Shown in pieces: positions 5,963 to 49,318 of a stretch of 64,000 bases of DNA. Under the pieces are notes generated by a model. The model was not told the DNA's origin, searched no databases, and saw only the letters and a program-made list of their open reading frames with translations. Position numbers and translations under genes: made by a program. The DNA comes from Roseovarius sp. 217 (GTDB lineage: Bacteria; Pseudomonadota; Alphaproteobacteria; Rhodobacterales; Rhodobacteraceae), in NCBI RefSeq assembly GCF_000152845.1, contig NZ_CH902584.1, positions 125,856 to 189,855 of the forward strand, given 5' to 3'. Within the stretch, counting starts at the first letter, position 1. Each line of letters opens with the position of its first letter.

Positions 5963-6919
5963 ATGATCACCTATTACGCCAAACACGAGACCGGATTGCA
6001 TCCGGTGCCAGACCTGAACGGCGCGCCTGTGCTGTGGATCGACATGCTCGCACCCGACGCACAGGCACTCGCGCAAATGTCGGGGCGTTTGGGCATCGCC
6101 CTGCCCAGCCGCGAGGATCAGGACGAGATCGAGCAATCCTCCCGCCTCTATCTTGAGGACGGCGTGCCGGTGATGACAGCCCTCTTGCCTGCGCGCAATG
6201 ACGCGGGCGAAACCATCGTCGGCCCGGTGTCTTTCGTGCTCATGGCCGACCGGCTGGTGACACTGCGTCACCACACCCCGCGCCCCTTTACCACCTTTCC
6301 CGACAAGGCCGGGAAATCCTCTTACGGCTGCGCCAGCACAGAGGCAGTGCTAATCGGTTTGATCGAGGAAATCATCGACCGACTGGCCGATATCATCGAA
6401 CAGACCGGGCGCGACATCGACGCGCTCTCCAAACGCATCTTTGGCGACAAACCCCTCAATACCGAGGCCTATCGCACCGCCCTGCGCGACATCGGTCAGG
6501 CCGACGGGCGCGTCATGCAAATCCGCGAGAGCCTGATGACACTGGAGCGCCTGCTGGGCTTTCTCATGCCGGTGATGGAGGCACGGCGCGGCGCCAAGCC
6601 ACTGCGCGGCGCGCTGAAATCGCAATATCGCGATGTGCGCACGATCACCGAACAGGCGGGCTATCTGCAACAGAAAACCGGCTTCATGCTGGATGCAGCG
6701 CTTGGCCTCATCACCATCGAGCAAAATGCCATCATCAAAATTTTCTCGGTCGCGGCGGTGGCCTTTCTGCCGCCCACCCTCGTGGCGTCCATCTACGGGA
6801 TGAATTTCGAGGTGATGCCAGAATTGTCCTGGCCCTTCGGCTATCCGCTGGCCTTGGGGCTGATGGCGCTGTCGGCGCTGGTGCCGCTCTGGCTTTTCCG
6901 CCGTCGCGGCTGGCTTTAA
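5963..6919 (+). CDS. CorA-family divalent metal transporter in the phn operon
   Basis: CorA/ZntB-type Mg2+ or other divalent-cation channel, 318 residues. It has a cytoplasmic N-terminal domain, a long helical stalk (about 130-260) and two C-terminal membrane helices. The pore signature GMN occurs in IYGMNFEVMPEL at the end of TM1. It lies 21 bp after phnK and 18 bp before phnL on the same strand, so it appears to be co-transcribed with the C-P lyase genes. Metal supply to the ATP- and Mg-dependent phn enzymes, or charge balance during phosphonate uptake, are possible reasons; neither is shown by sequence. The substrate (Mg, Co, Ni or Zn) cannot be assigned. Confidence 0.9.
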   Translation: MITYYAKHETGLHPVPDLNGAPVLWIDMLAPDAQALAQMSGRLGIALPSREDQDEIEQSSRLYLEDGVPVMTALLPARNDAGETIVGPVSFVLMADRLVTLRHHTPRPFTTFPDKAGKSSYGCASTEAVLIGLIEEIIDRLADIIEQTGRDIDALSKRIFGDKPLNTEAYRTALRDIGQADGRVMQIRESLMTLERLLGFLMPVMEARRGAKPLRGALKSQYRDVRTITEQAGYLQQKTGFMLDAALGLITIEQNAIIKIFSVAAVAFLPPTLVASIYGMNFEVMPELSWPFGYPLALGLMALSALVPLWLFRRRGWL

Positions 6920-6937
6920 CCCCATGGAGACCCGGCA

Positions 6938-7621
6938 ATGATCGAGATTGACAGCCTGAGCAAGAGCTTCACCCTGCACAATCAGGGTGGCGCGATCATT
7001 CCGGTGATGGTGGGCGCGCATCTCAATGCCGCCCCCGGCGAATGCGTGGCGCTCACCGGCAGCTCGGGCGCGGGCAAATCTACCCTCATGCGGATGATTT
7101 ACGGCAACTACCGTGCCAACACCGGGCGGATCATGGTGGGGGACACCGATGTCGCCCGCGCCACCCCGCGCGAGATCATCCAACTCCGCCGTCACACCCT
7201 GGGTTATGTCAGCCAGTTCCTGCGCGTCGTGCCCCGCGTGCCGACACGCGACGTGGTGGCAGAACCGCTCCTGATCCTCGGAACCCCGCCCGATGTGGCG
7301 CTCGACCGCGCCGAGGCGCTGCTGGCGCGCCTCAACATCCCCGGCCGGCTCTGGTCGCTCAGCCCCACGACGTTTTCCGGCGGCGAGCAACAGCGTGTCA
7401 ACATCGCACGCGGCTTTGCCCATGACTTTCCCGCCCTCCTGCTGGATGAGCCTACCGCCAGCCTCGATGCCACCAACCGCGAGGTCGTCCTGACCCTGAT
7501 CGAAGAGGCCAAGGCGCGCGGCGCGGCCATCATCGGCATTTTCCACGACGAGGCCGCACGCGCACGCGTCTGCGACCGAGAGGTGGACGTCGCCACCTTT
7601 ACCCCGGCGCGCGCGGCATGA
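6938..7621 (+). CDS. phnL: C-P lyase ABC-type protein PhnL
   Basis: ABC-type ATPase of the C-P lyase system, required with PhnGHI to form ribose-1-phosphonate 5-triphosphate. Walker A GSSGAGKST lies near residue 45, the signature is FSGGEQQRVNIARGF and the Walker B is LLLDEPTASLD. The 227-residue length matches PhnL and not PhnK, and LolD-like features confirm the subgroup. The gene is preceded by a good GGAGA ribosome-binding site. Its stop overlaps the phnN start (ATGA at 7618-7621). It is separated from phnK by corA. Confidence 0.95.
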   Translation: MIEIDSLSKSFTLHNQGGAIIPVMVGAHLNAAPGECVALTGSSGAGKSTLMRMIYGNYRANTGRIMVGDTDVARATPREIIQLRRHTLGYVSQFLRVVPRVPTRDVVAEPLLILGTPPDVALDRAEALLARLNIPGRLWSLSPTTFSGGEQQRVNIARGFAHDFPALLLDEPTASLDATNREVVLTLIEEAKARGAAIIGIFHDEAARARVCDREVDVATFTPARAA

Positions 7622-8166
7622 CGCGGGGCCGCCTCATCGCCGTGGTCGGCCCCTCTGGCGTGGGCAAGGACACGCTGATGCGCGCCATGATCGCAGGCCA
7701 CCCCGGTCTGCGCCGCGCCCGCCGCGTCATCACCCGCGCCCCCGACCCCGAAGGCGAGGGCCATGAGGCCGTGAGCGAGACCGAATTCGACGCCCGGCTC
7801 AAGGAGGGCGGTTTTGCCCTGCATTGGCGTGCGCACGGGCTACGCTACGGCGTGCCGGTGGGGATCTGCCTTGATCTGGCGGCGGGGCGCGATCTGCTGG
7901 TGAACCTGTCGCGCAGCGTGCTGCCCGAGGCACAGGCGCGGTTTCAGCCTTTTGTCATCCTGCATTTGACCGCCACCTCCGAGGTATTGGCTGCCCGCCT
8001 CGCCGGGCGCGGCCGCGAAACCCATACCGATATTGCGGAGCGGTTGAGCGGCGCCGATCTGGCCCTCCCCGAGGGCGTGGGTCCCGTGATCACGCTCGAC
8101 ACCGACGCAGCCCTCCCCCGGCTCACCAAAACCGCGCTCAAAGCAATCTATGCGGTCAAGGTATGA
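7618..8166 (+). CDS. phnN: Ribose 1,5-bisphosphate phosphokinase PhnN
   Basis: Converts ribose 1,5-bisphosphate to PRPP with ATP, the last step that returns the C-P lyase sugar product to metabolism. The guanylate-kinase-like fold shows the P-loop GPSGVGKDT at residues 12-20. Length is 182 residues, typical of PhnN. Start ATGA is coupled to phnL. The 3' end overlaps by 19 bp with the convergent DUF1045 gene. PhnN needs ribose 1,5-bisphosphate, normally made by PhnP, which is absent here; see the DUF1045 entry. Confidence 0.93.
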   Translation: MTRGRLIAVVGPSGVGKDTLMRAMIAGHPGLRRARRVITRAPDPEGEGHEAVSETEFDARLKEGGFALHWRAHGLRYGVPVGICLDLAAGRDLLVNLSRSVLPEAQARFQPFVILHLTATSEVLAARLAGRGRETHTDIAERLSGADLALPEGVGPVITLDTDAALPRLTKTALKAIYAVKV

Positions 8167-8834
8167 CGGTGCAGCACATGAAACCGCCCCTGCCGATCCT
8201 CGCCCACCAGCGAAAGCGCGTCGATCTGGAACGGACGCGGCACAATCGGGCCAAGCCGCGCGTCAAGCGCCGCCTTGATCACGGGCAATTCCGCCTTTGG
8301 CCGCTTGCCGGTCAACGTGATATGAAATCGGAACTCTTCCATCACATAGGGATAGCCCCAACGCAACAGGTGCGCGTCTTGCGCAGGCGTCAGCCCCCCG
8401 GCCCGACGCCGCGCCAATTGTGCCTCGGTCAAGGGCGCGCGAAACGGCTCGAACGCCGCAACGGCCCGTGCCGCCAACCCGTTCAGCCCACCCTGATCTC
8501 CCACCGGCACCAATGCCAGAAACCGCCCCAGAGCCGCGATCTCCAGCCCCGCCAGCGTGACCGCCGCCTCCCCTGCACAAAACCGCTCGAACGCCCCAAT
8601 CAATCCCGCCTCTCCCTGCCCCTCGGCCAAGGCAAAGGGCGGCTTGATCGTGGCATGCAGACCGTATTTGCGTGGGGTCTCGGTGATTTCGGCCACCGGC
8701 GCGGGCAGGCCCGGCACCTCGGGGTGCGCGACGGCACAGCCCCGCGCGCAATCCCACCCCAACCACGCCGCGCCCAGGGCGGCAAATTCCCCCTCGGGGG
8801 GCGTGAAATAAACAGCGTAGCGGTGAAAATCCAT
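8148..8834 (-). CDS. DUF1045 phosphonate-cluster protein with 2H phosphoesterase motifs
   Basis: Member of the DUF1045 family (putative phosphonate metabolism protein), 228 residues. Two HxT motifs, HATIKPPF near residue 60 and HITLTGKR near 180, fit the paired His-x-Thr/Ser of 2H phosphoesterases, which open cyclic phosphodiesters. The C-P lyase pathway needs a cyclic phosphodiesterase (PhnP in E. coli) and no phnP is visible, so this gene is a candidate replacement; that is inference. The start is ATG 8834 (MDFHRYAVYF), where family similarity begins; the upstream in-frame ATG 8885 would overlap phnM's start. It is encoded on the strand opposite to the rest of the cluster, between phnN and phnM. 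Confidence 0.85.
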   Translation of the reverse strand: MDFHRYAVYFTPPEGEFAALGAAWLGWDCARGCAVAHPEVPGLPAPVAEITETPRKYGLHATIKPPFALAEGQGEAGLIGAFERFCAGEAAVTLAGLEIAALGRFLALVPVGDQGGLNGLAARAVAAFEPFRAPLTEAQLARRRAGGLTPAQDAHLLRWGYPYVMEEFRFHITLTGKRPKAELPVIKAALDARLGPIVPRPFQIDALSLVGEDRQGRFHVLHRHTLTA

Positions 8835-8884
8835 GAGGTCTCTCGTCGGGTTGCCGTGACGTGCCAAGAAAGCGTGACATCCCA

Positions 8885-10027
8885 ATGACAGAAGACATCA
8901 TTCTCGCCAATGCCCTCCTCATCCTGCCCGATGCGGTGATGCCCGGCGCGCTCCACCTTCGGGGCGGTACAATCACCGCCATCGACAGCGGCACCGCCGT
9001 GCCGCCCGGTGCGGTCGATTGTGGCGGCGATTACCTCGCCCCCGGCCTGATCGAGCTGCACACCGACAATCTGGAGCGGCACATCCAACCCCGCCCCAAG
9101 GTCGATTGGCCGCATAATGCCGCCATCCTCGCCCATGATGCGGAACTGGCCAGCGTGGGCATCACCACCGTCTTTGACGCGATGCGCGTGGGCTCAATCC
9201 CCACCGGCGTCGGGCGCTATAGCAAATATGCCCGAGGTCTGGCCGATGAGTTGCTCAGCCTGCGCGCCGAGGATGCGCTCAAGATCAGCCATTTTCTGCA
9301 CCTGCGCGCCGAGGTCTGCTCGGAAACGCTGGAAGAGGAAATGGAGCAATTCGGCCCAGAGGACCGCGTCGGCATCGTCAGCCTGATGGACCACACGCCA
9401 GGGCAGCGCCAATTCCGCGACCTGACCAAGCTCGAGGAATACATGAAGGGCAAACACGCCCTCTCGGATGCGGAATTCGCCGAACATGTGGCGCAACTCA
9501 GGGCTCTGCGCGCCGCCAATGGCGCGCGCCACGAAGCGGCGGCGGTGGCCCACGCCGCCCGCTATGGCGCGGTGCTGGCCAGCCATGATGACACCACCGC
9601 CGAACAGGTGGCGGTGTCCGGCGGCTATGGCATCCGGCTGGCCGAATTTCCCACCACGGTCGAGGCGGCGCGAGCCTGTCACAGCCACGATATCGCGGTC
9701 ATCATGGGCGCGCCCAACCTCATTCGGGGCGGCTCGCATTCCGGCAATGTCGCGGCGGGGGAACTGGCGGACGTCGGCTATCTTGACATCCTGTCGTCGG
9801 ATTACGTGCCCTCCGCGCTCTTGCTCGGTGCGGTGCAACTGGGCGCACGCTGGGGCGATATGGCGCGGGGCCTCGCCACCGTCACCGCCAATCCGGCCCG
9901 CGCAGTGGGTCTGGCGGATCGCGGCACGCTCACGACCGGCGCACGCGCAGACCTGATCCGCTTTCGCCTGCGCAGCGGCGCGCCAGCGCTGCGCGGTGTC
10001 TGGTCACAGGGCCGCCGCGTCGCCTGA
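8885..10027 (+). CDS. phnM: Alpha-D-ribose 1-methylphosphonate 5-triphosphate diphosphatase PhnM
   Basis: Amidohydrolase-family enzyme that removes pyrophosphate from ribose-1-phosphonate 5-triphosphate before C-P cleavage. The metal-binding signatures are ELHTDNLERH (near 57), VSLMDHTPGQRQF (near 170), LASHDDTT (near 237) and DILSSDYVPSAL (near 305). Length is 380 residues from ATG 8885 (MTEDIILAN), preferred over an upstream GTG that overlaps the divergent DUF1045 start region. The gap to DUF1045 is 50 bp, so a shared divergent promoter is likely. All motifs are intact. Confidence 0.95.
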   Translation: MTEDIILANALLILPDAVMPGALHLRGGTITAIDSGTAVPPGAVDCGGDYLAPGLIELHTDNLERHIQPRPKVDWPHNAAILAHDAELASVGITTVFDAMRVGSIPTGVGRYSKYARGLADELLSLRAEDALKISHFLHLRAEVCSETLEEEMEQFGPEDRVGIVSLMDHTPGQRQFRDLTKLEEYMKGKHALSDAEFAEHVAQLRALRAANGARHEAAAVAHAARYGAVLASHDDTTAEQVAVSGGYGIRLAEFPTTVEAARACHSHDIAVIMGAPNLIRGGSHSGNVAAGELADVGYLDILSSDYVPSALLLGAVQLGARWGDMARGLATVTANPARAVGLADRGTLTTGARADLIRFRLRSGAPALRGVWSQGRRVA

Positions 10028-10098
10028 ACCCGCTTTGACAAGGGGGGAATCGGCGCGCATAACGGGCGCGAATTCAATCGCTTGCCCCGGAGGCCCCG

Positions 10099-10797
10099 AT
10101 GACCCAACCGCTGTTTTCCCTGCCCGCAACGCCGCTCGTGCCGATCACCGGCACGGATCAGGGCTACCCGGTGCAGCGCATCTTCTGCGTCGGGCGCAAC
10201 TATGCCGCCCATGCGCTTGAAATGGGCAATGAGGTAGACCGCGAAGCGCCGTTCTATTTCAACAAAGCGCCACAAACCCTGTGCCTCAGCGGCGCCAGCA
10301 TCCCCTATCCGCTGGAAACCTCGGATTGCCATCACGAGATGGAATTCGTCGTAGCGCTCAGCGCCCCCGCCTTTCGCGTCAGCGCGGCTGATGCGATGGA
10401 TGCGGTCTATGGCTATGCCTGCGGCATCGACCTCACCCGCCGCGACCTGCAAGGTGTCGCCAAGGAAAAACGCCGCCCCTGGGACATCGGCAAGGATTTC
10501 GAGAACGCCTCAATCATCTCGGCGCTCACCCCCAAAGCCGAATTTGGCGACATCGCCGATCAGGCCATCCGCCTCTCGGTGGACGGGCGCACCGTGCAAG
10601 AGGCGACACTCGCCGACATGATCTGGTCGGTCCCCGAGATCATCGCCCACCTGTCGCGCTTTTATCACCTCGCCCCCGGCGACCTGATTTACACCGGTAC
10701 GCCCGCAGGCGTCGGCCCCGTGCTGCCCGGCAACACACTCTTGGGCGAGATCGACGGTCTCGCCCCCCTGCACCTGACCATCACCGCCGCAGAGTAG
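10099..10797 (+). CDS. Fumarylacetoacetate hydrolase family protein (fumarylpyruvate hydrolase-like)
   Basis: FAH-superfamily enzyme, 232 residues, acting on 2,4-diketo acids or related substrates with a bound divalent metal. The metal-site segment HHEMEFVVAL (near 76-85) supplies the two acidic ligands, and the C-terminal IYTGTPAGVGPV segment is the family signature. Members of this length include fumarylpyruvate hydrolases, but substrate specificity cannot be settled. It starts at ATG 10099 after a CGGAGG ribosome-binding site, 71 bp downstream of phnM, and is followed by the SLAC1-type gene after 5 bp. A link to phosphonate breakdown is not evident. Confidence 0.85.
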   Translation: MTQPLFSLPATPLVPITGTDQGYPVQRIFCVGRNYAAHALEMGNEVDREAPFYFNKAPQTLCLSGASIPYPLETSDCHHEMEFVVALSAPAFRVSAADAMDAVYGYACGIDLTRRDLQGVAKEKRRPWDIGKDFENASIISALTPKAEFGDIADQAIRLSVDGRTVQEATLADMIWSVPEIIAHLSRFYHLAPGDLIYTGTPAGVGPVLPGNTLLGEIDGLAPLHLTITAAE

Positions 10798-40375: not shown

Positions 40376-41080
40376 TTACGTGGGTGCAGGCACAGCACCG
40401 CCGGGATCATGGAACCGATACCCGACACCGGGCTCGTTCTGGATGAGAACCGGGCTTGACGGATCCTGCTCAAGCTTCTTTCGCAACGACCGCACCGTGA
40501 CCCGGAGATATTCGACGTGGTCGGTATGCGCCTGCCCCCAGACCTCTCGCAGCAGATGGGTATGGGTGAGAACCTTGCCGGGATGGCTGGCAAGCGCCGC
40601 CAGAAGCGTGAACTCCTTGGGGGTCAACTTTACCTCGATGCCCGCCTTAGACACGGCATGTGCGTCGAGATCGACCTGCACCGGCCCGACGGTCAATTTG
40701 CGCAGGCGGCCCATCGTTTGATCCGTCCGACGCAGGCAGGACCGGATGCGCGCCAGCAATTCCTCGCTGTCGAACGGTTTGGTGACATAGTCATCCGCGC
40801 CAAGGTCGAGAGCCGCGACTTTCTCAACCGACGCATCACGGGCGGTCAATACAATGATCGGCACGCCTTGTTCGCGGAACGCGCCGATCAGCTCGAGCCC
40901 GTCGCGGTCAGGCAGACCGAGATCAAGCAGAACGAGTTGAGGCAGGGGCGTCCTGAGCGCAGCAAGCGCGGCCTTGGCACACTCGGCCTCGACGGTTGCA
41001 TAGCCGCTGCGCTCCAGCGCGACGCGCAGAAGACGCCGGATTGGCATTTCATCATCGACGATCAGGACTGGCCCGGTCAT
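40376..41080 (-). CDS. kdpE: Response regulator KdpE
   Basis: OmpR/PhoB-type response regulator of the Kdp K+ system. The phosphoacceptor Asp is in LVLLDLGLPDRDG (near 50) and the receiver Lys in DYVTKPFDSEELL (near 100). The winged-helix DNA-binding domain occupies about 128-225. Length is 234 residues. It overlaps kdpD by four bases (ATGA) and is the last gene of the kdp operon. It would activate the kdp promoter when K+ or turgor is low. Confidence 0.95.
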   Translation of the reverse strand: MTGPVLIVDDEMPIRRLLRVALERSGYATVEAECAKAALAALRTPLPQLVLLDLGLPDRDGLELIGAFREQGVPIIVLTARDASVEKVAALDLGADDYVTKPFDSEELLARIRSCLRRTDQTMGRLRKLTVGPVQVDLDAHAVSKAGIEVKLTPKEFTLLAALASHPGKVLTHTHLLREVWGQAHTDHVEYLRVTVRSLRKKLEQDPSSPVLIQNEPGVGYRFHDPGGAVPAPT

Positions 41081-43731
41081 GCGATATCCTCCAGTGAAAC
41101 CTGTATGATTGCGGTCGACGGGATGCGGATCGTGAAGCGCGATCCGCCCCCCTGACGCCGCGCCGCTTCGACGGTAAAGCCCATCGCTGCGGCGAACCCC
41201 TTGACGATGGCAAGGCCCAGCCCCGAGCCGCCGGTGCGATCCGATGTCTCGCCGCGCGCAAAGCGGTCAAAGATCCGCTGTTCGCTGCCCTGTGGAATGC
41301 CGGGCCCGCTGTCGAGCACGTCGATCACCGGCCCGCGCCGGCCCATCCGCGCGATGATCTCGATCGGTGCGTCCTGCGGCGAATACTTGGCCGCGTTGTC
41401 GACCAGATTGAGCAAGGCATGGTTGAGGAGAACCGCGTCGGCCCGCACCAGTGGCAGGTTCGGGTCGATCGAGGTCAGCACCTTTCGCCCAGTCAGGCTT
41501 TTGCTCAGGTCGCCCAGCGCAGAGGCGATCACATCGGTCAGATCCGTGGGCACAAGATCAGGCGTGACCGCGCCTTCCTCGATCCGGGTCAGGTCCAGCA
41601 GGTCCGACAGAAAGCGATTCAGCCTGCGCGCCTCGCTGCGCACCGTCTCGACCAATTCGGCCTCATCGCCTGTTGCCGAAAGCGCCTCGGCCGCTGCCGT
41701 CACGGCGGTGAGCGGAGTGCGCAGGTCATGGCTGAGCGAGGCGAGCAAGGCCGCGCGCAGGTTGTCGCGCTGACGGACCACCTCCATATCGCGCATGTCG
41801 GCCTCCAGCTTCAGGCGCTCATGGGCAAGAGCGGCCTGATCAATCAGGCTTTCGGCCAGCGCCGCACGCTCGGTCGGGATGGGATCACGGCCATGTGGCC
41901 CACGAAACCCAAGGACCGCCAGGGTCCCGAGCGAGGTCTTGAGCGGGCGGAACTGCCACGCGCTGGCGGTGAGGGTATTGGTGCCGATGCCAGCCTCCTC
42001 GCCATGATCCATCACCCATTCCGCCGCAGCGCGGTCCACCGGGCTCAGCTGTGGCTTTGTCTGACCAAAAGCCGATATCGTCACGCCGTCGGCGGAGGGG
42101 TGCAGCACGATGGTCTGCACCGCCAGCAAGGATCGCAATTCATCGCGGATGAGCTGCGCTGTCTCTTGCGTATTGCTTGCGGCCCCGAGCCGTGTGGCGA
42201 ACCGGGCAAGGCCCGCATTCTCACGAGCGCTGCGCATGGCAAGAGCGGCGGCAGCGCGGGCGCGTGCCGCAAGCTGCCCGGTGATGATCGCGACGACCAC
42301 GAGCAAGACAGCCGTGATGATATTCGCAGGTCCGTAGATGATGACGGTGTAGAACGGTGGAAGGAAGAAGAAGTTATAGGCGATCCCGGCAGCAATCGCG
42401 GCGATCAGACCGGCGCGAAATCCGTAAAGACTGGCGCTGACGATCACCGGCAACAGATAGAGAAGGTCAATCGGACCGCGACTGATCCAGCCCTGCGCCA
42501 GAAAGGCGGCCAGCGTCAACGCAGCGACCGATCCGATGGCCACGGCATCTCCGGTCCAGCTTCCGCGCGGCACAAAATTCCGCCAGTCTCGCCCGCGCAC
42601 CTGCTCGTCAAAGGGGATGACGTGGATGGCGACGCCGGTTGTCCGGTCGAGGATATCCTGAACGATCGGATCGCGCCGTCTCCACCAACCACCCTGTCGA
42701 CGCGATTTCCCCAAGACAAGCTGCGTGGCGCTCACGTCCCTGCAATGCGCCAGAATGGCATCCTGAACAGAGGTTGCAGGCACCGATTGCAACGTGGCCC
42801 CGAGCGACGCCGCCAGCGACAGATTTCCAGCCAGTTGTGTTTTCTCGGCGTCACCGAACCGCTCCGCCGACGGTGTCTCGACATAGAGCGCGATGAGCGG
42901 TGCCTTGAGTGCATCAGCGAGACGCTTTGCGGCGCGGATCACCTGCTCGCCCCCTGCCTCCTGAGAGATCGCGACAAGGATGCGCTGTCCGCCGGCATAG
43001 CCGATATCCTTGCCGGTGACGCTCTTGTGTTCCTGAATGCGCGCTTCGACATATTGCGCGGCATGGCGCAGCGCGAGTTCGCGCAACGCGAGCAGGTTGC
43101 CCTTGGAAAAGAAGTGATCGAGCGCGTGGCGCGCCTGGTCGGGCACATAGACCTTGCCATCGCCCAGACGCGATATGAGATCCTCTGGCGGCAGGTCGAT
43201 CAGCTCGATTTCAGCCTCCTCGAACACCTTGTCCGGCACGGTTTCGCGGACCCGGACATGGGTAAAGCTGCCAACCACGTCATTGAGGCTTTCGACATGC
43301 TGGATGTTCACCGTGGTCATCACGTCGATGCCCGCAGCGCGCAACTCTTCGATATCCTGCCACCGCTTGGGGTGTCGGCTTCCCGGCGCATTGGTGTGGG
43401 CCAGTTCGTCAACGAGAACAATCTTGGGTCGCCGCTCCAGCACCGCATCGAGGTCCATCTCTGTCAGGGTCTGGCCCTTGTAGTCGATCTTTCTGCGGGG
43501 AATGACCGGCAACGGGGCAACCAGCGCCTCGGTCTCGTCGCGGCCATGGGTCTCGACCAGGCCGATGACGACATCGGCACCAGCCTCGATTTTTTCCGCC
43601 CCTTCAAGGAGCATTTCGTAGGTTTTCCCGACGCCGGGGGCGGCGCCAAGAAAGATCTTGAGCGTGCCACGCCCCTCGCGTTGTGCTTCGCGCAGCAGGG
43701 CATCGGGCGAGGGGCGAGCGTCATCTGTCAT
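41077..43731 (-). CDS. kdpD: Osmosensitive K+ channel histidine kinase KdpD
   Basis: Membrane sensor kinase of 884 residues. The N-terminal KdpD sensor domain (about 18-230) contains Walker A GAAPGVGKT (residues 29-37), VDELAHTNAPGSRHPKRWQD and a HVE segment. A universal-stress-like domain follows (about 250-370), then four membrane helices (about 400-495), a GAF-like region, and the kinase: H-box SHDLRTPLTAVTAAAEAL near 666, N-box and G-boxes (VLDSGPGIPQGSEQRIFDRF, GSGLGLAIVKGF). The domains appear complete. It lies 9 bp after kdpC and overlaps kdpE. Confidence 0.96.
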   Translation of the reverse strand: MTDDARPSPDALLREAQREGRGTLKIFLGAAPGVGKTYEMLLEGAEKIEAGADVVIGLVETHGRDETEALVAPLPVIPRRKIDYKGQTLTEMDLDAVLERRPKIVLVDELAHTNAPGSRHPKRWQDIEELRAAGIDVMTTVNIQHVESLNDVVGSFTHVRVRETVPDKVFEEAEIELIDLPPEDLISRLGDGKVYVPDQARHALDHFFSKGNLLALRELALRHAAQYVEARIQEHKSVTGKDIGYAGGQRILVAISQEAGGEQVIRAAKRLADALKAPLIALYVETPSAERFGDAEKTQLAGNLSLAASLGATLQSVPATSVQDAILAHCRDVSATQLVLGKSRRQGGWWRRRDPIVQDILDRTTGVAIHVIPFDEQVRGRDWRNFVPRGSWTGDAVAIGSVAALTLAAFLAQGWISRGPIDLLYLLPVIVSASLYGFRAGLIAAIAAGIAYNFFFLPPFYTVIIYGPANIITAVLLVVVAIITGQLAARARAAAALAMRSARENAGLARFATRLGAASNTQETAQLIRDELRSLLAVQTIVLHPSADGVTISAFGQTKPQLSPVDRAAAEWVMDHGEEAGIGTNTLTASAWQFRPLKTSLGTLAVLGFRGPHGRDPIPTERAALAESLIDQAALAHERLKLEADMRDMEVVRQRDNLRAALLASLSHDLRTPLTAVTAAAEALSATGDEAELVETVRSEARRLNRFLSDLLDLTRIEEGAVTPDLVPTDLTDVIASALGDLSKSLTGRKVLTSIDPNLPLVRADAVLLNHALLNLVDNAAKYSPQDAPIEIIARMGRRGPVIDVLDSGPGIPQGSEQRIFDRFARGETSDRTGGSGLGLAIVKGFAAAMGFTVEAARRQGGGSRFTIRIPSTAIIQVSLEDIA

Positions 43732-43740
43732 GGGGCCGTT

Positions 43741-44313
43741 TTACTCCGTGTCGGACGAACGTGCCAGTTCAGCATCGAGCGCGATGTTCAGCTCCAGCAC
43801 ATTGACGATGCGGTCTGGCGTGAATGCCCCACCTGGCCGTTCTGCCAGCCGGTCGATGATCGCCCGGACAGCAGCCGGTGCCACATCACGCGCCGCCGCG
43901 ACGCGGGGCGCCTGAAAAAGCGCGCCCGCACGCGAAATATGCGGATCAAGCCCCGCACCCGAGGCCGTCACCAGATCGGCTGGGATCGGGGTGGTATTTC
44001 CGCCATAGGCCGCGATCAGCGCCCTCGCACGCTCTGCCAAGAGCGGATTGGCAGGCGACAGGTTCGATCCGCCCGCGCCGGCCGCGTCATACGCCACCGC
44101 AGAGGGTCGCGGCCAGACATAGCCCGGCGCGGTGAAGCCCTGCGCGATCAGGCGGCTGCCCCGCGCGGTGCCGTCGTCGCCCAGGATAAGCGAGCCGTTG
44201 GCGGTGGCCGGTGTGACGACTTGCGCAAAGCCGAGGATCACGGCGGTATAGCCTGCGACGCAGATCGCCATGGTCGCTGCTGTGACACGAAGGCCTGAAA
44301 TGATGTCGTTCAT
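43741..44313 (-). CDS. kdpC: Potassium-transporting ATPase subunit KdpC
   Basis: Single-helix subunit that stabilises the KdpFABC complex and increases ATP affinity. One N-terminal membrane helix (about 9-30) is followed by a periplasmic domain of about 160 residues. The conserved LITASGAGLDPHISRAGALFQ-type segment is recognised as DLVTASGAGLDPHISR, with the nearby RIVNVLELN near the C-terminus. Length is 190 residues. It follows kdpA after 23 bp and precedes kdpD after 9 bp. Confidence 0.94.
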   Translation of the reverse strand: MNDIISGLRVTAATMAICVAGYTAVILGFAQVVTPATANGSLILGDDGTARGSRLIAQGFTAPGYVWPRPSAVAYDAAGAGGSNLSPANPLLAERARALIAAYGGNTTPIPADLVTASGAGLDPHISRAGALFQAPRVAAARDVAPAAVRAIIDRLAERPGGAFTPDRIVNVLELNIALDAELARSSDTE

Positions 44314-44336
44314 TGGTCTGTCTCCTTTGACGCGGC

Positions 44337-45998
44337 TCAGGGCCGCGCGAAATGTTCGGCAATCGGCCCAAGCGCCGCCGCCGGAAGAAAGGTGAGTGCG
44401 CCAAAGATCACAATGGTGATCCCCAGCATGATGCCGAAGGTCGCATCCTCGACCCCGAGCGTGCCCACACTTTCCGCCGCGCGGCGCTTGGTCATCAGGC
44501 TGCCAACAATGGCGAGCGTCAGGATGATGGGCAGGAACCGCCCGAGCAGCATCACGACGCCCGTGGCGATGTTCCAGGCCCAGGTGCCATCCCCCAACCC
44601 CTCAAAGCCAGAGCCGTTATTGGCCGCCGCCGAGGTGAACTCGTAGAGGATCTCCGAGAAACCGTGCGCGCCCGTCTCCTGCACCGTGGATTGGCCCAGC
44701 GACGTTGCGGCAAAGAGCGCCGTGCCGCCGAGGATCAGGACGGCGTGCGCGAAGAGTGCCAGAACGGCGAGCCGCACCTCCTTGGCCTCAATCCTGTGAC
44801 CGAGATATTCCGGCGTGCGCCCCACCATCATCCCCGCGACAAAGACCGCGACGACGATGTAGAGGAACATGTTGATCATGCCCACGCCGACGCCGCCAAA
44901 GGTCGCGTTGAGCCACATGCCCGCCATCGGCATCAGCCCGGTCAGCGGATTGAGGCTGTCATGCATCGCACCGACTGACCCGTTCGAGGTGGACGTGGTC
45001 AGCACCGCCCAGAGCGGCCCGCCCGTGGCCCCAAAGCGTAGTTCCTTGCCTTCAAGGTTGCCGACATCCGCGGCGACGGGCAAGTCGGCAAAGGCCGGGG
45101 TTGGCGCAGTCTCAAAGCTGACCGAGCCAGTGATCTTGACCAGGATGAACAGCGTCATCACCGCAAAGATGACAGCCGCGTGTTTCCTCCGGCCCAGAAT
45201 CCCGCCGAACATCCAGACACAGGCCATCGGGATCAGCATGATGGCGATCATCGCCAGCCCGTTGGTCCAGAAACTCGGGTTTTCCAGCGGATGCGTGGCG
45301 TTGGGCCCAAAGAAGCCGCCGCCATTGGTGCCCAGTTGCTTGATCGTCAAAAACGCCGCGACCGGGCCACGCGCGATGGTCTGTGTCACCCCTTCGAGCG
45401 TGGTGATCACCGCCGAGCCCTGCAAAGTCATCGGCACGCCCATCAGCACCATCAGCACCGCCACGACCAGCGCCACGGGCAGCAGCACAAGAAAGCTCGC
45501 GCGCTGCACGTCGACCAGAAAGTTGCCAAGCGTCGCGCGGCCCGCAATGCCACGGGCCAACGCGGCCAGCGCCGCGATGCCGGTCGCCGCCGATACGAAT
45601 TGCAGCCACATCAGTCCGGCAAGCTGGCTCAGATAGCTCATCGAGACCTCGCCCGAATAATGCTGCAGGTTGGTGTTGGTGGTAAAGGAAGCCGCCGTGT
45701 TGAACACCAGCGTCGGATCGAGACTGCCCTTGCCATCGGGGTTCAGCGGCAGCCAGTGTTGCAGCGCGAGGATCGCGAAGGTCACCGTAAACATGATCGC
45801 ATTGAAGATCAGCATCGCCACGAGATAGCGTTTCCAGCCCTGCTCCTCGCAGGTCCCGCCGATCCGGGCAAAGAGAGTGGTCCAGCGCGTGGCCCCGCCA
45901 GAGGCGGGATCCATTGCCAGTTTCATCCAGGCACCCAGCGGCAACGACAGCAGCGCCGTGCCACCAATGACAAGCCCTATGACACGCACATGGTCCAT
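44337..45998 (-). CDS. kdpA: Potassium-transporting ATPase K+-binding subunit KdpA
   Basis: Ten-helix K+-selective subunit of the Kdp P-type ATPase, 553 residues. Selectivity-filter segments are seen at SFTTNTNLQHYSG (near 110), TNGGGFFGPNATHPLENP (near 225), FGATGG (near 340) and AANNGSGFEGLGDG (near 460). The start lies 5 bp after the stop of a 26-residue membrane peptide, whose 3' end supplies the AAGGAG ribosome-binding site of kdpA. Unusually, kdpA comes after kdpB instead of before it. Confidence 0.96.
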   Translation of the reverse strand: MDHVRVIGLVIGGTALLSLPLGAWMKLAMDPASGGATRWTTLFARIGGTCEEQGWKRYLVAMLIFNAIMFTVTFAILALQHWLPLNPDGKGSLDPTLVFNTAASFTTNTNLQHYSGEVSMSYLSQLAGLMWLQFVSAATGIAALAALARGIAGRATLGNFLVDVQRASFLVLLPVALVVAVLMVLMGVPMTLQGSAVITTLEGVTQTIARGPVAAFLTIKQLGTNGGGFFGPNATHPLENPSFWTNGLAMIAIMLIPMACVWMFGGILGRRKHAAVIFAVMTLFILVKITGSVSFETAPTPAFADLPVAADVGNLEGKELRFGATGGPLWAVLTTSTSNGSVGAMHDSLNPLTGLMPMAGMWLNATFGGVGVGMINMFLYIVVAVFVAGMMVGRTPEYLGHRIEAKEVRLAVLALFAHAVLILGGTALFAATSLGQSTVQETGAHGFSEILYEFTSAAANNGSGFEGLGDGTWAWNIATGVVMLLGRFLPIILTLAIVGSLMTKRRAAESVGTLGVEDATFGIMLGITIVIFGALTFLPAAALGPIAEHFARP

Positions 45999-46002
45999 GG
46001 GG

Positions 46003-46083
46003 TCACTCCTTGAAAAGCCGGGTCACGATGCCGATCAGGGCGGCAAAAATCAGAATCCCGATTGCATAGGTGAGAAAGATCAT
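46003..46083 (-). CDS. 26-residue single-helix membrane peptide between kdpB and kdpA
   Basis: Tiny coding unit starting MIFLTYAIGILIFAALIGIV (residues 1-20, all hydrophobic) and ending in a charged VTRLFKE. A strong GGAGG ribosome-binding site precedes the ATG by six bases, and the stop lies 5 bp before the kdpA start, with kdpA's ribosome-binding site inside it. The membrane topology resembles KdpF, but a canonical KdpF gene is present separately upstream of kdpB. It could be a second KdpF-like accessory peptide. Function is unknown; expression is supported only by the signals described. Confidence 0.7.
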   Translation of the reverse strand: MIFLTYAIGILIFAALIGIVTRLFKE

Positions 46084-46095
46084 CTGCGTCCTCCG

Positions 46096-48108
46096 TCACG
46101 AGAGGCCGAGGCCGGACACGACCATATCGATCAGCTTGATCCCGACAAAGGGCGCGATCAGGCCGCCAAGCCCGTAGAGGCCAAGATTGCGGATAAGTTG
46201 CCGGGCCGCGCTCTGCGGTCGATAGGTCACGCCGCGCAGCGCCAGCGGCACCAACAACGGGATGATGACGGCGTTGAAGATGATCGCCGACAGGATCGCG
46301 CTTTGCGGGCTGGCAAGCCCCATGACGTTGAGCGCATCCAGACCCGGATAAAGCACCACGAAAATCGCCGGAAGGATGGCGAAATACTTGGCCACGTCAT
46401 TCGAGATCGAAAAGGTGGTCAGCGCGCCGCGCGTCATCAAAAGCTGCTTGCCGATGCCCACCACCTCGATCAGCTTTGTCGGGTTGTTGTCGAGATCGAC
46501 CATGTTGCCGGCCTCGCGCGCGGCCTGCGTGCCGGTGTTCATCGCAACACCCACATCGGCCTGCGCAAGCGCCGGCGCGTCGTTGGTGCCGTCCCCGCAC
46601 ATGGCGACCAGCTTGCCCTCGGCCTGTTCCTTGCGGATCAGCTCCAGCTTGTCCTCGGGCGTTGCCTCGGCCAGAAAGTCATCAACCCCGGACTCGGCCG
46701 CGATGGCCGCCGCCGTCAGCGGATTGTCCCCGGTGATCATCACCGTGCGGATGCCCATGCGGCGCAATTCGGCAAAGCGCTCCTTGATGCCTGCCTTGAC
46801 GATATCCGACAGGTTGATCGCCCCCAGCAGGCGGTTGCCATCGGCCACGGCCAGCGGCGTGCCGCCCGCCCGTGCGATCCGTTCGGTTAGGCTGCGCATC
46901 TGCGTGACAGCGCTTTGGTCAAAGTCATGTAGGTTCAGGATCGCGTCCACCGCGCCTTTGCGGATCTTGCGCTCGCCAATATCGATCCCGCTGACCCGTG
47001 TCTGTGCCGAGAAGCTCACCCTTTCGGCAGCGTTGGGGGCCGCCTCACCCTTGCCCGCCAGTTCGATGATCGACCGGCCCTCGGGGGTTTCATCCCCCAG
47101 CGACGACAGCCGCGCCGCCTCGATCAGGTCGCCCTCCTGCACGCCCGACAGTGGCAAAAACTCGGTCGCCTGCCGATCACCCAGCGTGATCGTCCCGGTC
47201 TTGTCGAGCAGCAGCGTGTCAATGTCGCCCGCCGCCTCGACCGCGCGGCCAGACTTGGCCAAGACGTTAAAGCGGATCAGCCGGTCCATGCCCGCGATAC
47301 CGATCGCCGACAGCAACGCAGAGATTGTCGTGGGGATCAGCGCCACGAAAAGCGCCACAAGGACCGGCACCGGGATGGCGCCCCCCGCATAGGCGGCAAA
47401 GGCAGGCAGCGTGCCGACCGCAATGAGAAAGATCAGCGTAAGCCCCGTGAGCAGCACCGTCAGCGCGACCTCGTTCGGTGTCTTGGCGCGGCTCGCGCCT
47501 TCGACAAGGCTGATCATCCGGTCGAGGAATCCCTCGCCCGGCTCTGCCGTCACCTTGACCTTGATCCAGTCCGAGATCACGCGCGTGCCCGCCGTGACCG
47601 CAGACCGGTCGCCACCCGCCTCGCGGATCACCGGCGCGGATTCCCCGGTGATCGCCGCCTCGTTGACCCACGCGACGCCCTCGATGACCTCGCCGTCCGC
47701 CGGGATCTGATCGCCGGTCTCAACCAGCACGATGTCACCGGCGCGCAGATCGCTGGCTGATACGCGCTTTTGGATGTCGCCCTTGAGGCGCTTGCCTTTC
47801 AGTTCCGCCTTGGTCGACCGCAATGAGGCCGCCTGCGCCTTGCCGCGCCCTTCTGCCAGCGCCTCGGCGAAGGTGCCGAAGAGCACCGTCAGCCAGAGCC
47901 AGAAGACGATCTGTGCCTCGAAACCCGCATCGCCACCAAAGGCCAGCGTGCGGATCAGCAGTATCGTCGCCAACAGGGCGACAACGGCTGTGGTGAACAT
48001 CACCGGGTTGCGGATCAACTGGCGCGGATCGAGCTTGACGACGCTCTCGCGCATCGCCGGACCGACAAGGCCGGATGAAAAGATCGACGTGTTGTGGTGA
48101 AGGGCCAT
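46096..48108 (-). CDS. kdpB: Potassium-transporting ATPase catalytic subunit KdpB
   Basis: P-type ATPase subunit of 670 residues that hydrolyses ATP for K+ import. The phosphorylation motif [13 protein letters not shown] lies near residue 301, the A-domain TGES motif at ITGESAPV near 153, and the [20 protein letters not shown] hinge near 510. Around seven membrane helices are seen. It starts 9 bp after kdpF and is followed by a 26-residue peptide and kdpA. In most genomes kdpA precedes kdpB; the order here is reversed. Confidence 0.96.
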
Positions 48109-48117
48109 GCTGCGCCC

Positions 48118-48207
48118 TCAGAACCGTTCGGGCCGCAAGAGCACAGCCAGCAGATAAACGAGAAGCGCTGCGGCAATGATGCCACCGAGCACGAGATCGA
48201 AGCCCAT
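48118..48207 (-). CDS. kdpF: KdpF, small stabilising subunit
   Basis: 29-residue single-helix peptide ending in the classic ALLRPERF-type tail (here VLLRPERF) and starting MGFDLVLGGIIAAALLVYLL, which matches KdpF. It stabilises the KdpFABC complex in the membrane. The start has a GGAGG ribosome-binding site (in GGAGGATTGAGAC). It is the first gene of the operon and lies 9 bp before kdpB. It is too short for most gene callers. Confidence 0.85.
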   Translation of the reverse strand: MGFDLVLGGIIAAALLVYLLAVLLRPERF

Positions 48208-48275
48208 GTCTCAATCCTCCAGATACCATTTCGTTTCTGATATCTGCGCCGGATGGGCATAAAGCCGCCATGTGA

Positions 48276-48290
48276 AGTTCACGCAGAACT
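48276..48290. promoter_or_regulatory. Inverted repeat in the kdp upstream region
   Basis: AGTTC (48276-48280) and GAACT (48286-48290) with a 5-nt spacer, about 70 bp upstream of kdpF. Nearby TTTATG elements occur on the minus strand. It is a candidate KdpE or other regulator site; the regulator is not known. Confidence 0.35.
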
Positions 48291-48333
48291 CATAAAGTGA
48301 GCATAAAAATCACTTGTAATCAGAGGTTTGAAA

Positions 48334-48453
48334 ATGCGCCCGCGCGCCCATTTGCGTGAGAAACAGCGCCCCAAAGGCCGCTCGGTCGAGGGCTCCGAGG
48401 ATGTGTCGGACATCATGTGGCGCGGTGCGGTCGATGTTTGGCAACGCACCTGA
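48334..48453 (+). CDS. Doubtful 39-residue ORF upstream of the ArsR operator
   Basis: Short plus-strand frame starting MRPRAHLREKQRPKGRSVEG with an AGAGG ribosome-binding site eight bases upstream. It ends two bases before the first ArsR-type operator. It may be a remnant of a longer gene or chance. No family is recognised. Confidence 0.2.
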   Translation: MRPRAHLREKQRPKGRSVEGSEDVSDIMWRGAVDVWQRT

Positions 48454-48454
48454 T

Positions 48455-48474
48455 ACTTAGGTTTATGGCTAAGT
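48455..48474. promoter_or_regulatory. ArsR-type operator, site 1
   Basis: Perfect inverted repeat ACTTAG-N8-CTAAGT. An identical-geometry copy lies 48 bp further on. These flank the start of an ArsR-family gene, so they are the probable autoregulatory operators. Confidence 0.7.
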
Positions 48475-48502
48475 TTTATTGACGGCCCTCACCCATGATG
48501 TT

Positions 48503-48522
48503 ACTTAGGAACATGTCTAAGT
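48503..48522. promoter_or_regulatory. ArsR-type operator, site 2
   Basis: Second ACTTAG-N8-CTAAGT, overlapping the ATG at 48513 of the ArsR-family gene. The pair shares the extended form ACTTAGG-N2-YATG-N-CTAAGT. Confidence 0.7.
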
Positions 48523-48854
48523 ATGAACCCAGCCTTGATCTCTGCTTTTCGGCGCTTGGCGATCCAACGCGACGCATGATCCTTCAGCGTCTAGCACGGG
48601 GCGAGGCCTCCGTCAGCGCGTTGGCTGCAGGGCATGATATGGCGCTGCCGTCTGTCATGGAACACCTGAAAAAACTCGAAGCGGCCAATCTTATCACCTC
48701 AAGGAAAAAAGGGCGGACACGGATCTGTGCGCTGTCCCCGGAGGCATTCACACCAGCCCAAAATTGGCTGAGCGCACAGAGTGCGATCTGGGAAGGGCGT
48801 CTCGACCGCTTTGACGATTACATCACGACTCTCATGCAGGAGAAAGAGACATGA
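48513..48854 (+). CDS. ArsR-family HTH transcriptional regulator
   Basis: 113-residue winged-helix regulator of the ArsR/SmtB fold (CFSALGDPTRRMILQRLARG near 11-30, recognition helix MALPSVMEHLKKLEAANL near 43-60, wing GRTRICALSP). It lacks an obvious metal-binding CxC, so it probably belongs to the group paired with SRPBCC/AHSA1 genes. The start is uncertain: ATG 48513 lies inside operator 2 with AGGA only two bases upstream, while ATGs at 48495 and 48498 are six and five codons earlier. It overlaps the next gene by ATGA. Autorepression through the two operators is likely. Confidence 0.85.
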   Translation: MSKYEPSLDLCFSALGDPTRRMILQRLARGEASVSALAAGHDMALPSVMEHLKKLEAANLITSRKKGRTRICALSPEAFTPAQNWLSAQSAIWEGRLDRFDDYITTLMQEKET

Positions 48855-49318
48855 CCCTCGATCCCAAGACCGACCTGACATTCACGCGCACGATCAACGC
48901 ACCACGGGCCCTGCTTTGGGAGTGCTGGACAACGCCGGAGCATATCAAGAATTTCTTTGTGCCAAGACCGCATGTTATCGAGGCATGCGAGATCGACCTG
49001 AGGGTTGGAGGCAAATTCAACACGACAATGAATGTCGACGGCCACCGGATGGAGAACGTGGGCGTTTTTCTGGACGTGGTCGACGGCGAACGATTGGTGT
49101 TCACAGACACCTATAGTGAAGGATGGAAGCCCGCACCCGATCCCTTTATGACGGCGATCGTCGAGTTTGCCGATGATGGAAAGGGTGGAACCACATACAC
49201 GGCCACGGCGCGCCATCGGTCATCCGAAGCGCGGCAGAGCCACGAGGATATGGGTTTCTATGAGGGCTGGGGAACAGTGGCAACACAGCTTGAGGCCTAC
49301 GCGCAATCGCTCAAGTGA
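48851..49318 (+). CDS. SRPBCC (AHSA1-like) domain protein
   Basis: 155-residue START/Bet v1-type protein of the activator-of-Hsp90-ATPase homologue 1-like group. It starts with FTRTINAPRALLWECWTTPE (near 11-30), a hallmark of this family, and has GMDGHRMENVG-like segments (here VDGHRMENVGVF) and a C-terminal helix. It overlaps the ArsR-family gene (ATGA), the common ArsR-SRPBCC pair. The ligand and role are unknown; small-molecule binding or stress response are typical suggestions. Confidence 0.85.
   Translation: MTLDPKTDLTFTRTINAPRALLWECWTTPEHIKNFFVPRPHVIEACEIDLRVGGKFNTTMNVDGHRMENVGVFLDVVDGERLVFTDTYSEGWKPAPDPFMTAIVEFADDGKGGTTYTATARHRSSEARQSHEDMGFYEGWGTVATQLEAYAQSLK

Follow-up and report, generated by a model that had tools for sequence, protein, structure and literature searches.

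The Kdp potassium pump, KdpFABC, is a model for the joining of a channel and a P-type ATPase, and phospholamban, sarcolipin and FXYD are single-helix partners of other P-type ATPases. The small subunit KdpF stabilises the Escherichia coli complex, according to the available part of the source (PMC8385062). Here, we analysed a stretch of 64,000 nucleotides of Roseovarius sp. 217 (contig NZ_CH902584.1, positions 125,856 to 189,855; hereafter the window) whose minus strand carries a kdp operon in the order kdpF-kdpB-X-kdpA-kdpC-kdpD-kdpE, where X is a gene for a peptide of 26 amino acids:

46003-46083, minus strand: X (KdpZ-like), MIFLTYAIGILIFAALIGIVTRLFKE; 26 aa, single helix, with conserved frame, selection and kdp linkage
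46090-46094, minus strand: ribosome-binding site of X, GGAGG, 6 nt from the X ATG, located by sequence inspection

Sequence comparison strongly supports X as a genuine protein, and the predicted peptides form a family that is widespread, linked to kdp and distinct from KdpF. X, a selected single-pass membrane peptide, most likely serves the Kdp K+ pump as a small accessory subunit in addition to KdpF, a reading that we hold with a probability of about 0.57. Such a role is the simplest reading, since X is similar to KdpF in length, precedes kdpA in all gene orders seen and was found only with kdp. If many other bacteria do carry such an additional conserved subunit, the working complex has been described so far without one of its parts.

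The X codons are under purifying selection. The in-frame ratio of nonsynonymous to synonymous differences (pN/pS) was 0.38 for 66 pairs from the 12 loci of the window's clade and 0.46 for 435 pairs from 30 loci that are mostly Hyphomicrobiales by title, while the two shifted frames gave 1.25 and 1.36, and 0.98 and 1.90, in the two locus sets; these pairs are not independent of each other. Third codon positions were the most variable. An earlier note on this DNA had proposed to examine conservation and codon selection in relatives, and had held that absence of the frame from close relatives would speak against the peptide. Both the B-before-A order and the X frame were found to be kept in relatives, and all 11 other intact loci of the window's clade carry X, so the absence envisaged by that note was not observed.

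To examine linkage to kdp, we built a profile from 22 X rows and ran it on 349 complete sets of Pseudomonadota genome sequence, the kdpA coordinates being compared by eye. Of 46 matches at E<=0.01, 38 have E<=1e-3, and all of these 38, eight of which come from loci that supplied profile rows, lie at kdp genes. In 37 cases a kdpA match follows directly downstream; the remaining one, in a genome for which no kdpA was listed (G439), has a KdpF frame directly downstream at the end of a contig. The eight weaker matches (E 0.001-0.01) are divided between kdpA (four) and the inside of frames of 217-304 aa (four). At E<=1e-3 this profile reaches only part of the 113 genomes that have KdpA. In a separate background check, the window X scored 39.6 bits vs 9.0 bits for the next of 116 scored open reading frames (ORFs), the window X itself being a training row.

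The family extends well beyond the gene order of the window, and X was found in the orders X-F-A-B-C, F-B-X-A-C, F-X-A-C-B and B-X-F-A-C, upstream of kdpA in each. It precedes kdpF in A-B-C operons of, for example, Hydrogenedentota (L131, L133) and Desulfurivibrio (L132). We built one profile from 25 B-X-A peptides only and applied it upstream of kdpA in 132 A-before-B loci, where at least 5 bits were reached in 41 loci; the opposite strand, triplet-shuffled DNA and the interior of kdpA served as three controls and gave 0 of 132 each. A two-fold cross-validated profile, to which rows from A-before-B loci were added, was scored on 130 loci; its training rows were chosen by a C-terminal pattern set after seeing the data, which the B-X-A-only profile avoids. 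It gave at least 8 bits in 97 loci vs 1, 0 and 0 of 130 in the controls (opposite strand, shuffled, and antisense inside kdpA), at least 10 bits in 93 loci vs none in any control, and at least 13.0 bits, above all noise matches seen, in 88. The noise ceiling was 10.8 bits inside kdpA (its last helix) and 12.3 bits elsewhere. Since the controls often contain no short hydrophobic frame (the median control score with the B-X-A-only profile is the value for "none"), the contrast reflects the mere existence of such a frame to the same degree as its sequence. The peptide had been regarded as an extra to the normal operon, a view that does not hold given the 97 A-before-B loci with X-like peptides.

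In 100 A-before-B loci the score of X was at least 5 bits; here, X starts with ATG in 90 and follows a Shine-Dalgarno (SD)-like string in 88, a count that has no chance rate beside it. A KdpF frame is also present in every one of them, usually with X directly upstream of kdpF. The 8,099 hydrophobic ORFs found in 118 loci include no single-frame fusion of X with KdpF, and no convincing second copy of X was seen in these loci outside the region ahead of kdpA; matches inside kdpA were excluded by position, and five opposite-strand matches of 10.0-12.3 bits were judged to be noise. Some further arrangements were observed. Three Planctomycetota (L094, L113, L114) have A-C-B operons in which a KdpF frame is followed by X and X directly by kdpA, and two Deinococcus plasmids (L235, L253) have the order B-X-F-A-C, a B-first order that the KdpA tree separates from that of the Alphaproteobacteria.

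As for the distribution among organisms, KdpA was found in 113 of the 349 Pseudomonadota genomes, and 90 loci were examined, of which 87 are A-before-B, unique and have at least 450 nt upstream. X reached 5 bits in 64 of the 87, across 22 of 28 family codes. Some rows below the threshold (L251, L209) resemble X by eye. On the pSymA record of Sinorhizobium meliloti (L246), the X score was 23 bits. In other phyla, the profile scored 26.8 bits in Subdoligranulum (L249), 24.5 in Bacteroides (L252) and 20.8 in Bacillus badius (L250). Lower scores were obtained for Allomeiothermus (L254, 12.1 bits), Parabacteroides (L238, 10.5), Streptomyces (L239, 10.5), Listeria (L237, 8.0) and Rhodococcus (L255, 6.4); the low-scoring matches fall in the noise range by score and are assigned by position. 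Upstream of kdpA, the profile gave nothing in Lactiplantibacillus (L240) or Halobacterium (L241).

Closer to the window, KdpA was detected in 17 of the 295 genomes searched in the window's family. The B-X-A arrangement is present in five, including the window's own genome and G150, and the canonical A-B order in 11, whose KdpA is 44-50% identical. In the remaining one (G135), a deletion has removed X plus most of kdpB and kdpA: at 6066-10107 of locus L062, kdpB residues 1-45 are fused into kdpA residues 350-553, and kdpD matches in three pieces. When the window X was used as a direct query, three relatives besides itself were retrieved at E<=1.5e-5, each directly upstream of kdpA, and the other matches listed had E values of 0.16 or worse. 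A wider set consisted of the best 80 of 97 confirmed related loci. Here kdpB precedes kdpA in 67 loci and X lies between them in 44, with a length of exactly 26 aa in 42 of the 44. In two Hyphomicrobiales loci with the B-A order, the X frame was seen to be shifted (L107, a metagenome-assembled genome, 5854-5946) or degenerate (L123, 5864-5977), and in two further loci kdpB and kdpA are separated by about 0.9-1.1 kb of additional sequence, which may hold another gene (L088, 5125-6001; L128, 4877-6001).

The other parts of the operon are as follows:

48118-48207, minus strand: kdpF, canonical 29-aa subunit; PF09604 E 6.6e-11, 42.3 bits (cut-off 21.2), and TIGR02115 E 4.4e-9
46096-48108, minus strand: kdpB, P-type ATPase subunit; TIGR01497 E 2e-294
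46006-46011, minus strand: ribosome-binding site of kdpA, AAGGAG, identical with the final two codons of X and 7 nt from the kdpA ATG
44337-45998, minus strand: kdpA, K+-binding channel-like subunit; PF03814 E 1.2e-202
43741-44313, minus strand: kdpC; PF02669 E 5.9e-55
41077-43731, minus strand: kdpD sensor-kinase frame, an 884-aa ORF named by eye
40376-41080, minus strand: kdpE-like response-regulator frame, a 234-aa ORF that overlaps kdpD, named by eye

All four pump genes, kdpA, kdpB, kdpC and kdpF, are thus recognised in the window by Pfam or NCBIfam, in the order F-B-X-A-C and not F-A-B-C, and the gene coordinates, the order and the 29-residue KdpF before kdpB agree with what the earlier note had described. 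The KdpD frame of the window, used as a query, matches D frames that adjoin kdp genes in relatives. The strong GGAGG site claimed for a 26-residue single-helix peptide is borne out by the sequence and by the duplex energy: with the anti-SD core it forms the strongest duplex among five ribosome sites compared (-9.5 kcal/mol, followed by kdpF with -9.3). Divergent from kdpF, two overlapping frames were noticed on the plus strand, which by eye encode a small ArsR-type regulator (48495-48854) and an AHSA1-type protein (48851-49318).

The reversal of kdpA and kdpB, once pointed out as an oddity of this locus, turned out to be a trait of the lineage. A KdpA tree was built with FastTree from 202 rows, of which 149 have X (64 of 199 inner branches open); it requires at least 4 changes of the A/B order and at least 18 changes in the presence of X. 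X occurs on both sides of the midpoint root of this tree, as would fit a gene of old origin that was lost repeatedly.

How X might act can be outlined as follows. The peptide would be made from the kdp operon just before KdpA, or before KdpF and KdpA. Basic residues mark the cytoplasmic end of a membrane helix (the positive-inside rule). None of 149 X peptides has K or R at residues 2-5, and 146 of 149 have at least one K or R among the last eight residues, so that this rule predicts an N-out, C-in orientation for X, the basic C-terminus facing the cytoplasm. X would then pack against the membrane-spanning portion of the complex, with the KdpA side as the probable place, and may help to assemble or stabilise the complex as KdpF does. 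From the gene neighbourhood alone, we infer KdpA as the partner of X. In the clade of the window, the end of X would additionally carry the ribosome site of kdpA.

Several observations weigh against X as an accessory subunit. A number of pump lineages lack X and presumably work, which implies that X is not required for the Kdp pump as such: X was found in 0 of 6 loci of family code f40, 0 of 8 of f45 and 0 of 2 of f42, and one E. coli record (L256) has KdpF but no X within 7.6 kb around kdpA. Among the 67 B-before-A loci, 23 are without X, 18 of which have Sphingomonadales-type titles or belong to that KdpA clade; L107 and L123, with their shifted or degenerate X frames, are two of the others. 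Moreover, the columns changed in at least three X-less clades are no more numerous than in X-bearing control clades, either in KdpA (3/160 vs 3/159) or in KdpB (6/346 vs 6/337), and the columns changed in at least two X-less clades (KdpA 13/160 vs 8/159, KdpB 27/346 vs 35/337) were judged to carry no signal. With no excess of co-changing columns in KdpA or KdpB, no contact site for X is suggested. The positive-inside rule may also mislead for such peptides, as a two-hybrid study places the C-terminus of mycobacterial KdpF in the periplasm (available part of PMC3618439). Finally, the operon position of X is also compatible with a regulator.

The last point leads to the strongest competing explanation, that X is not structural and is instead a regulatory membrane peptide which tunes the activity of the pump or the KdpD sensor. 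Phospholamban tunes SERCA in this way, there are known examples of membrane peptides binding to sensor kinases, and the patchy presence of X on the KdpA tree would suit an optional modulator. In the available part of PMC3618439, KdpF bound KdpD in a bacterial two-hybrid test, and overexpression of KdpF changed kdp regulation little. On the other hand, X stays upstream of kdpA under every gene order, and KdpA therefore fits as its partner better than KdpD. Of the earlier suggestion of a new regulatory subunit, the new subunit is retained as the best reading, and the regulatory role appears rather unlikely.

It is improbable that X is a mere translational-coupling leader, which opens the ribosome site of kdpA (or kdpF) and encodes an inert peptide. 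The kdpA ribosome site does lie in the 3' end of X, as had been claimed, and the X stop codon is 4 nt from the kdpA ATG, both in the window and in all 12 loci of its clade, with an SD-like string inside the X end (AAGGA in 10 and GAGGA in two). An overlap of 4 nt between X and kdpF (starts as chosen by the analyst) is also seen in 29 of the 100 A-before-B loci in which X reaches 5 bits. However, selection acts at the amino-acid level, the sequence pattern of X is common to different phyla, the distance from X to kdpA varies from -4 to 216 nt in the remaining B-X-A loci (kdpA start estimated), kdpF usually intervenes in A-before-B loci, and Sphingomonadales-type loci mostly get by with 28-47 nt between kdpB and kdpA and without X, L088 and L128 with their longer gap being exceptions. 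As the end of X probably also serves as the kdpA ribosome site in every one of the 12 loci of the window's clade, and only there, coupling is plausible as an added local feature, and the proposal of a coupling device stands to that extent.

Slightly less probable still is the view that X derives from a duplicate KdpF, has since diverged and plays a redundant role, to which the similar size, the single helix and the adjoining place in the operon would point. The earlier idea of two KdpF-like subunits was rejected. PF09604 and TIGR02115 gave no match at E<=1 to any of the 22 X rows, although the window's own KdpF does match, and the X and KdpF profiles aligned with an hhalign probability of 12.5% over 18 hydrophobic columns. 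The C-termini differ as well: the window X ends in FKE and many X rows in D/E-R/K-x, whereas KdpF has PERF-like ends, and the [KR]-P-E-x-F type end of KdpF is absent from X. Besides, all 100 of the A-before-B loci with X contain a KdpF frame too. No tested X row reached a Pfam or NCBIfam cut-off; the commonest match below cut-off was NF041554 (SA1362_fam; 4 of 22 rows, best E 0.037), with 13 bits for the window X against a cut-off of 42. PHROGs gave only scattered single-row matches (best E 0.0018).

It is very improbable that X is an ORF arisen by chance or a stretch of conserved DNA wrongly read as a gene: short hydrophobic ORFs do arise by chance and profile noise reaches 10.8 and 12.3 bits, but frame-specific selection, the profile scores compared with controls, the whole-genome linkage to kdp and the lack of any Rfam match in window positions 43000-49000 argue against it.

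If X is a second accessory subunit, a wider possibility arises, which we put forward tentatively and hold to be somewhat short of even odds: the Kdp pump of most bacteria may be KdpFABC plus X, with X being old, lost repeatedly and missing from the solved structures since their lineage lost it. The lineages that would have lost X are f45 and f40 (enteric- and pseudomonad-like by resemblance) and a Sphingomonadales-type clade. A search of the PDB with the X profile gave nothing convincing (best E 0.25), while the KdpF profile does retrieve KdpF chains. KdpA relatives at E<=1e-5 comprise 25 PDB entries with three distinct 557-aa sequences of nearly equal score; those outside a 2025 eLife structure paper are presumably also from E. 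coli. That paper itself names E. coli (PMC12629597, available part). Because the X gene is only about 80 nt long and often unannotated in the records examined, constructs that start at kdpF would omit it. A separate observation concerns three f45 genomes (L181, L183, L196), which have a mutually similar hydrophobic frame directly upstream of kdpF. It has no clear ribosome site and may represent either what is left of X or DNA of the promoter.

Previous descriptions contain some hints of such a peptide. Alicyclobacillus (A. acidocaldarius) presumably carries a kdpZFABC operon, and we take orfZ and orfY of Clostridium acetobutylicum to be small hydrophobic peptides. In the latter, two genes, kdpZ and kdpY, stand ahead of kdpA on one transcript, named kdpZYABCXDE (PMC5401905, available part), which may be compared with the order X-F-A-B-C. 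Unlike kdpZ, the X of the window sits between kdpB and kdpA, and the two are likened by position, not by sequence. The KdpZ-like position, upstream of kdpF and kdpA, is seen in A-before-B relatives, and X stands before KdpF on the Clostridia plasmid of Subdoligranulum. In Mycetohabitans, an annotated 34-aa frame directly before kdpF (WP_191287747.1) scores 28 bits with the cross-validated X profile. It differs from the window X in its longer basic tail and canonical X-F-A-B-C order, and its annotation as "potassium ABC transporter ATPase" suggests that pipelines have already seen the family under a misleading name. It is the only plasmid record with a gene table examined in which X is listed; in others the frame is present and unlisted, although the PLSDB gene tables are incomplete and some of the original records may list it. 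For C. crescentus, about 100 nt ahead of kdpF have been discussed as a structured 5' untranslated region (PMC8552747, available part). An X-like frame, judged by eye, lies directly before kdpF on a Caulobacteraceae plasmid (L257, 2308-2391), and hence the C. crescentus region may be coding. In the available parts of the literature searched, which mostly excludes subscription journals, no second conserved small Kdp peptide is described, and the main text of a ribosome-profiling paper on S. meliloti (PMC10117765) has no word beginning with kdp.

Compared with the described small subunit of the pump, X is like KdpF in having 25-30 aa and one helix, in belonging to the kdp operon and in lying near kdpA, and unlike it in lacking a P-E-[RK]-F type end and any match to the KdpF models, with both sharing the same operon. 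As a working analogy, and with no sequence relation claimed, X may be likened to phospholamban, sarcolipin and FXYD, the one-helix partners of P-type pumps.

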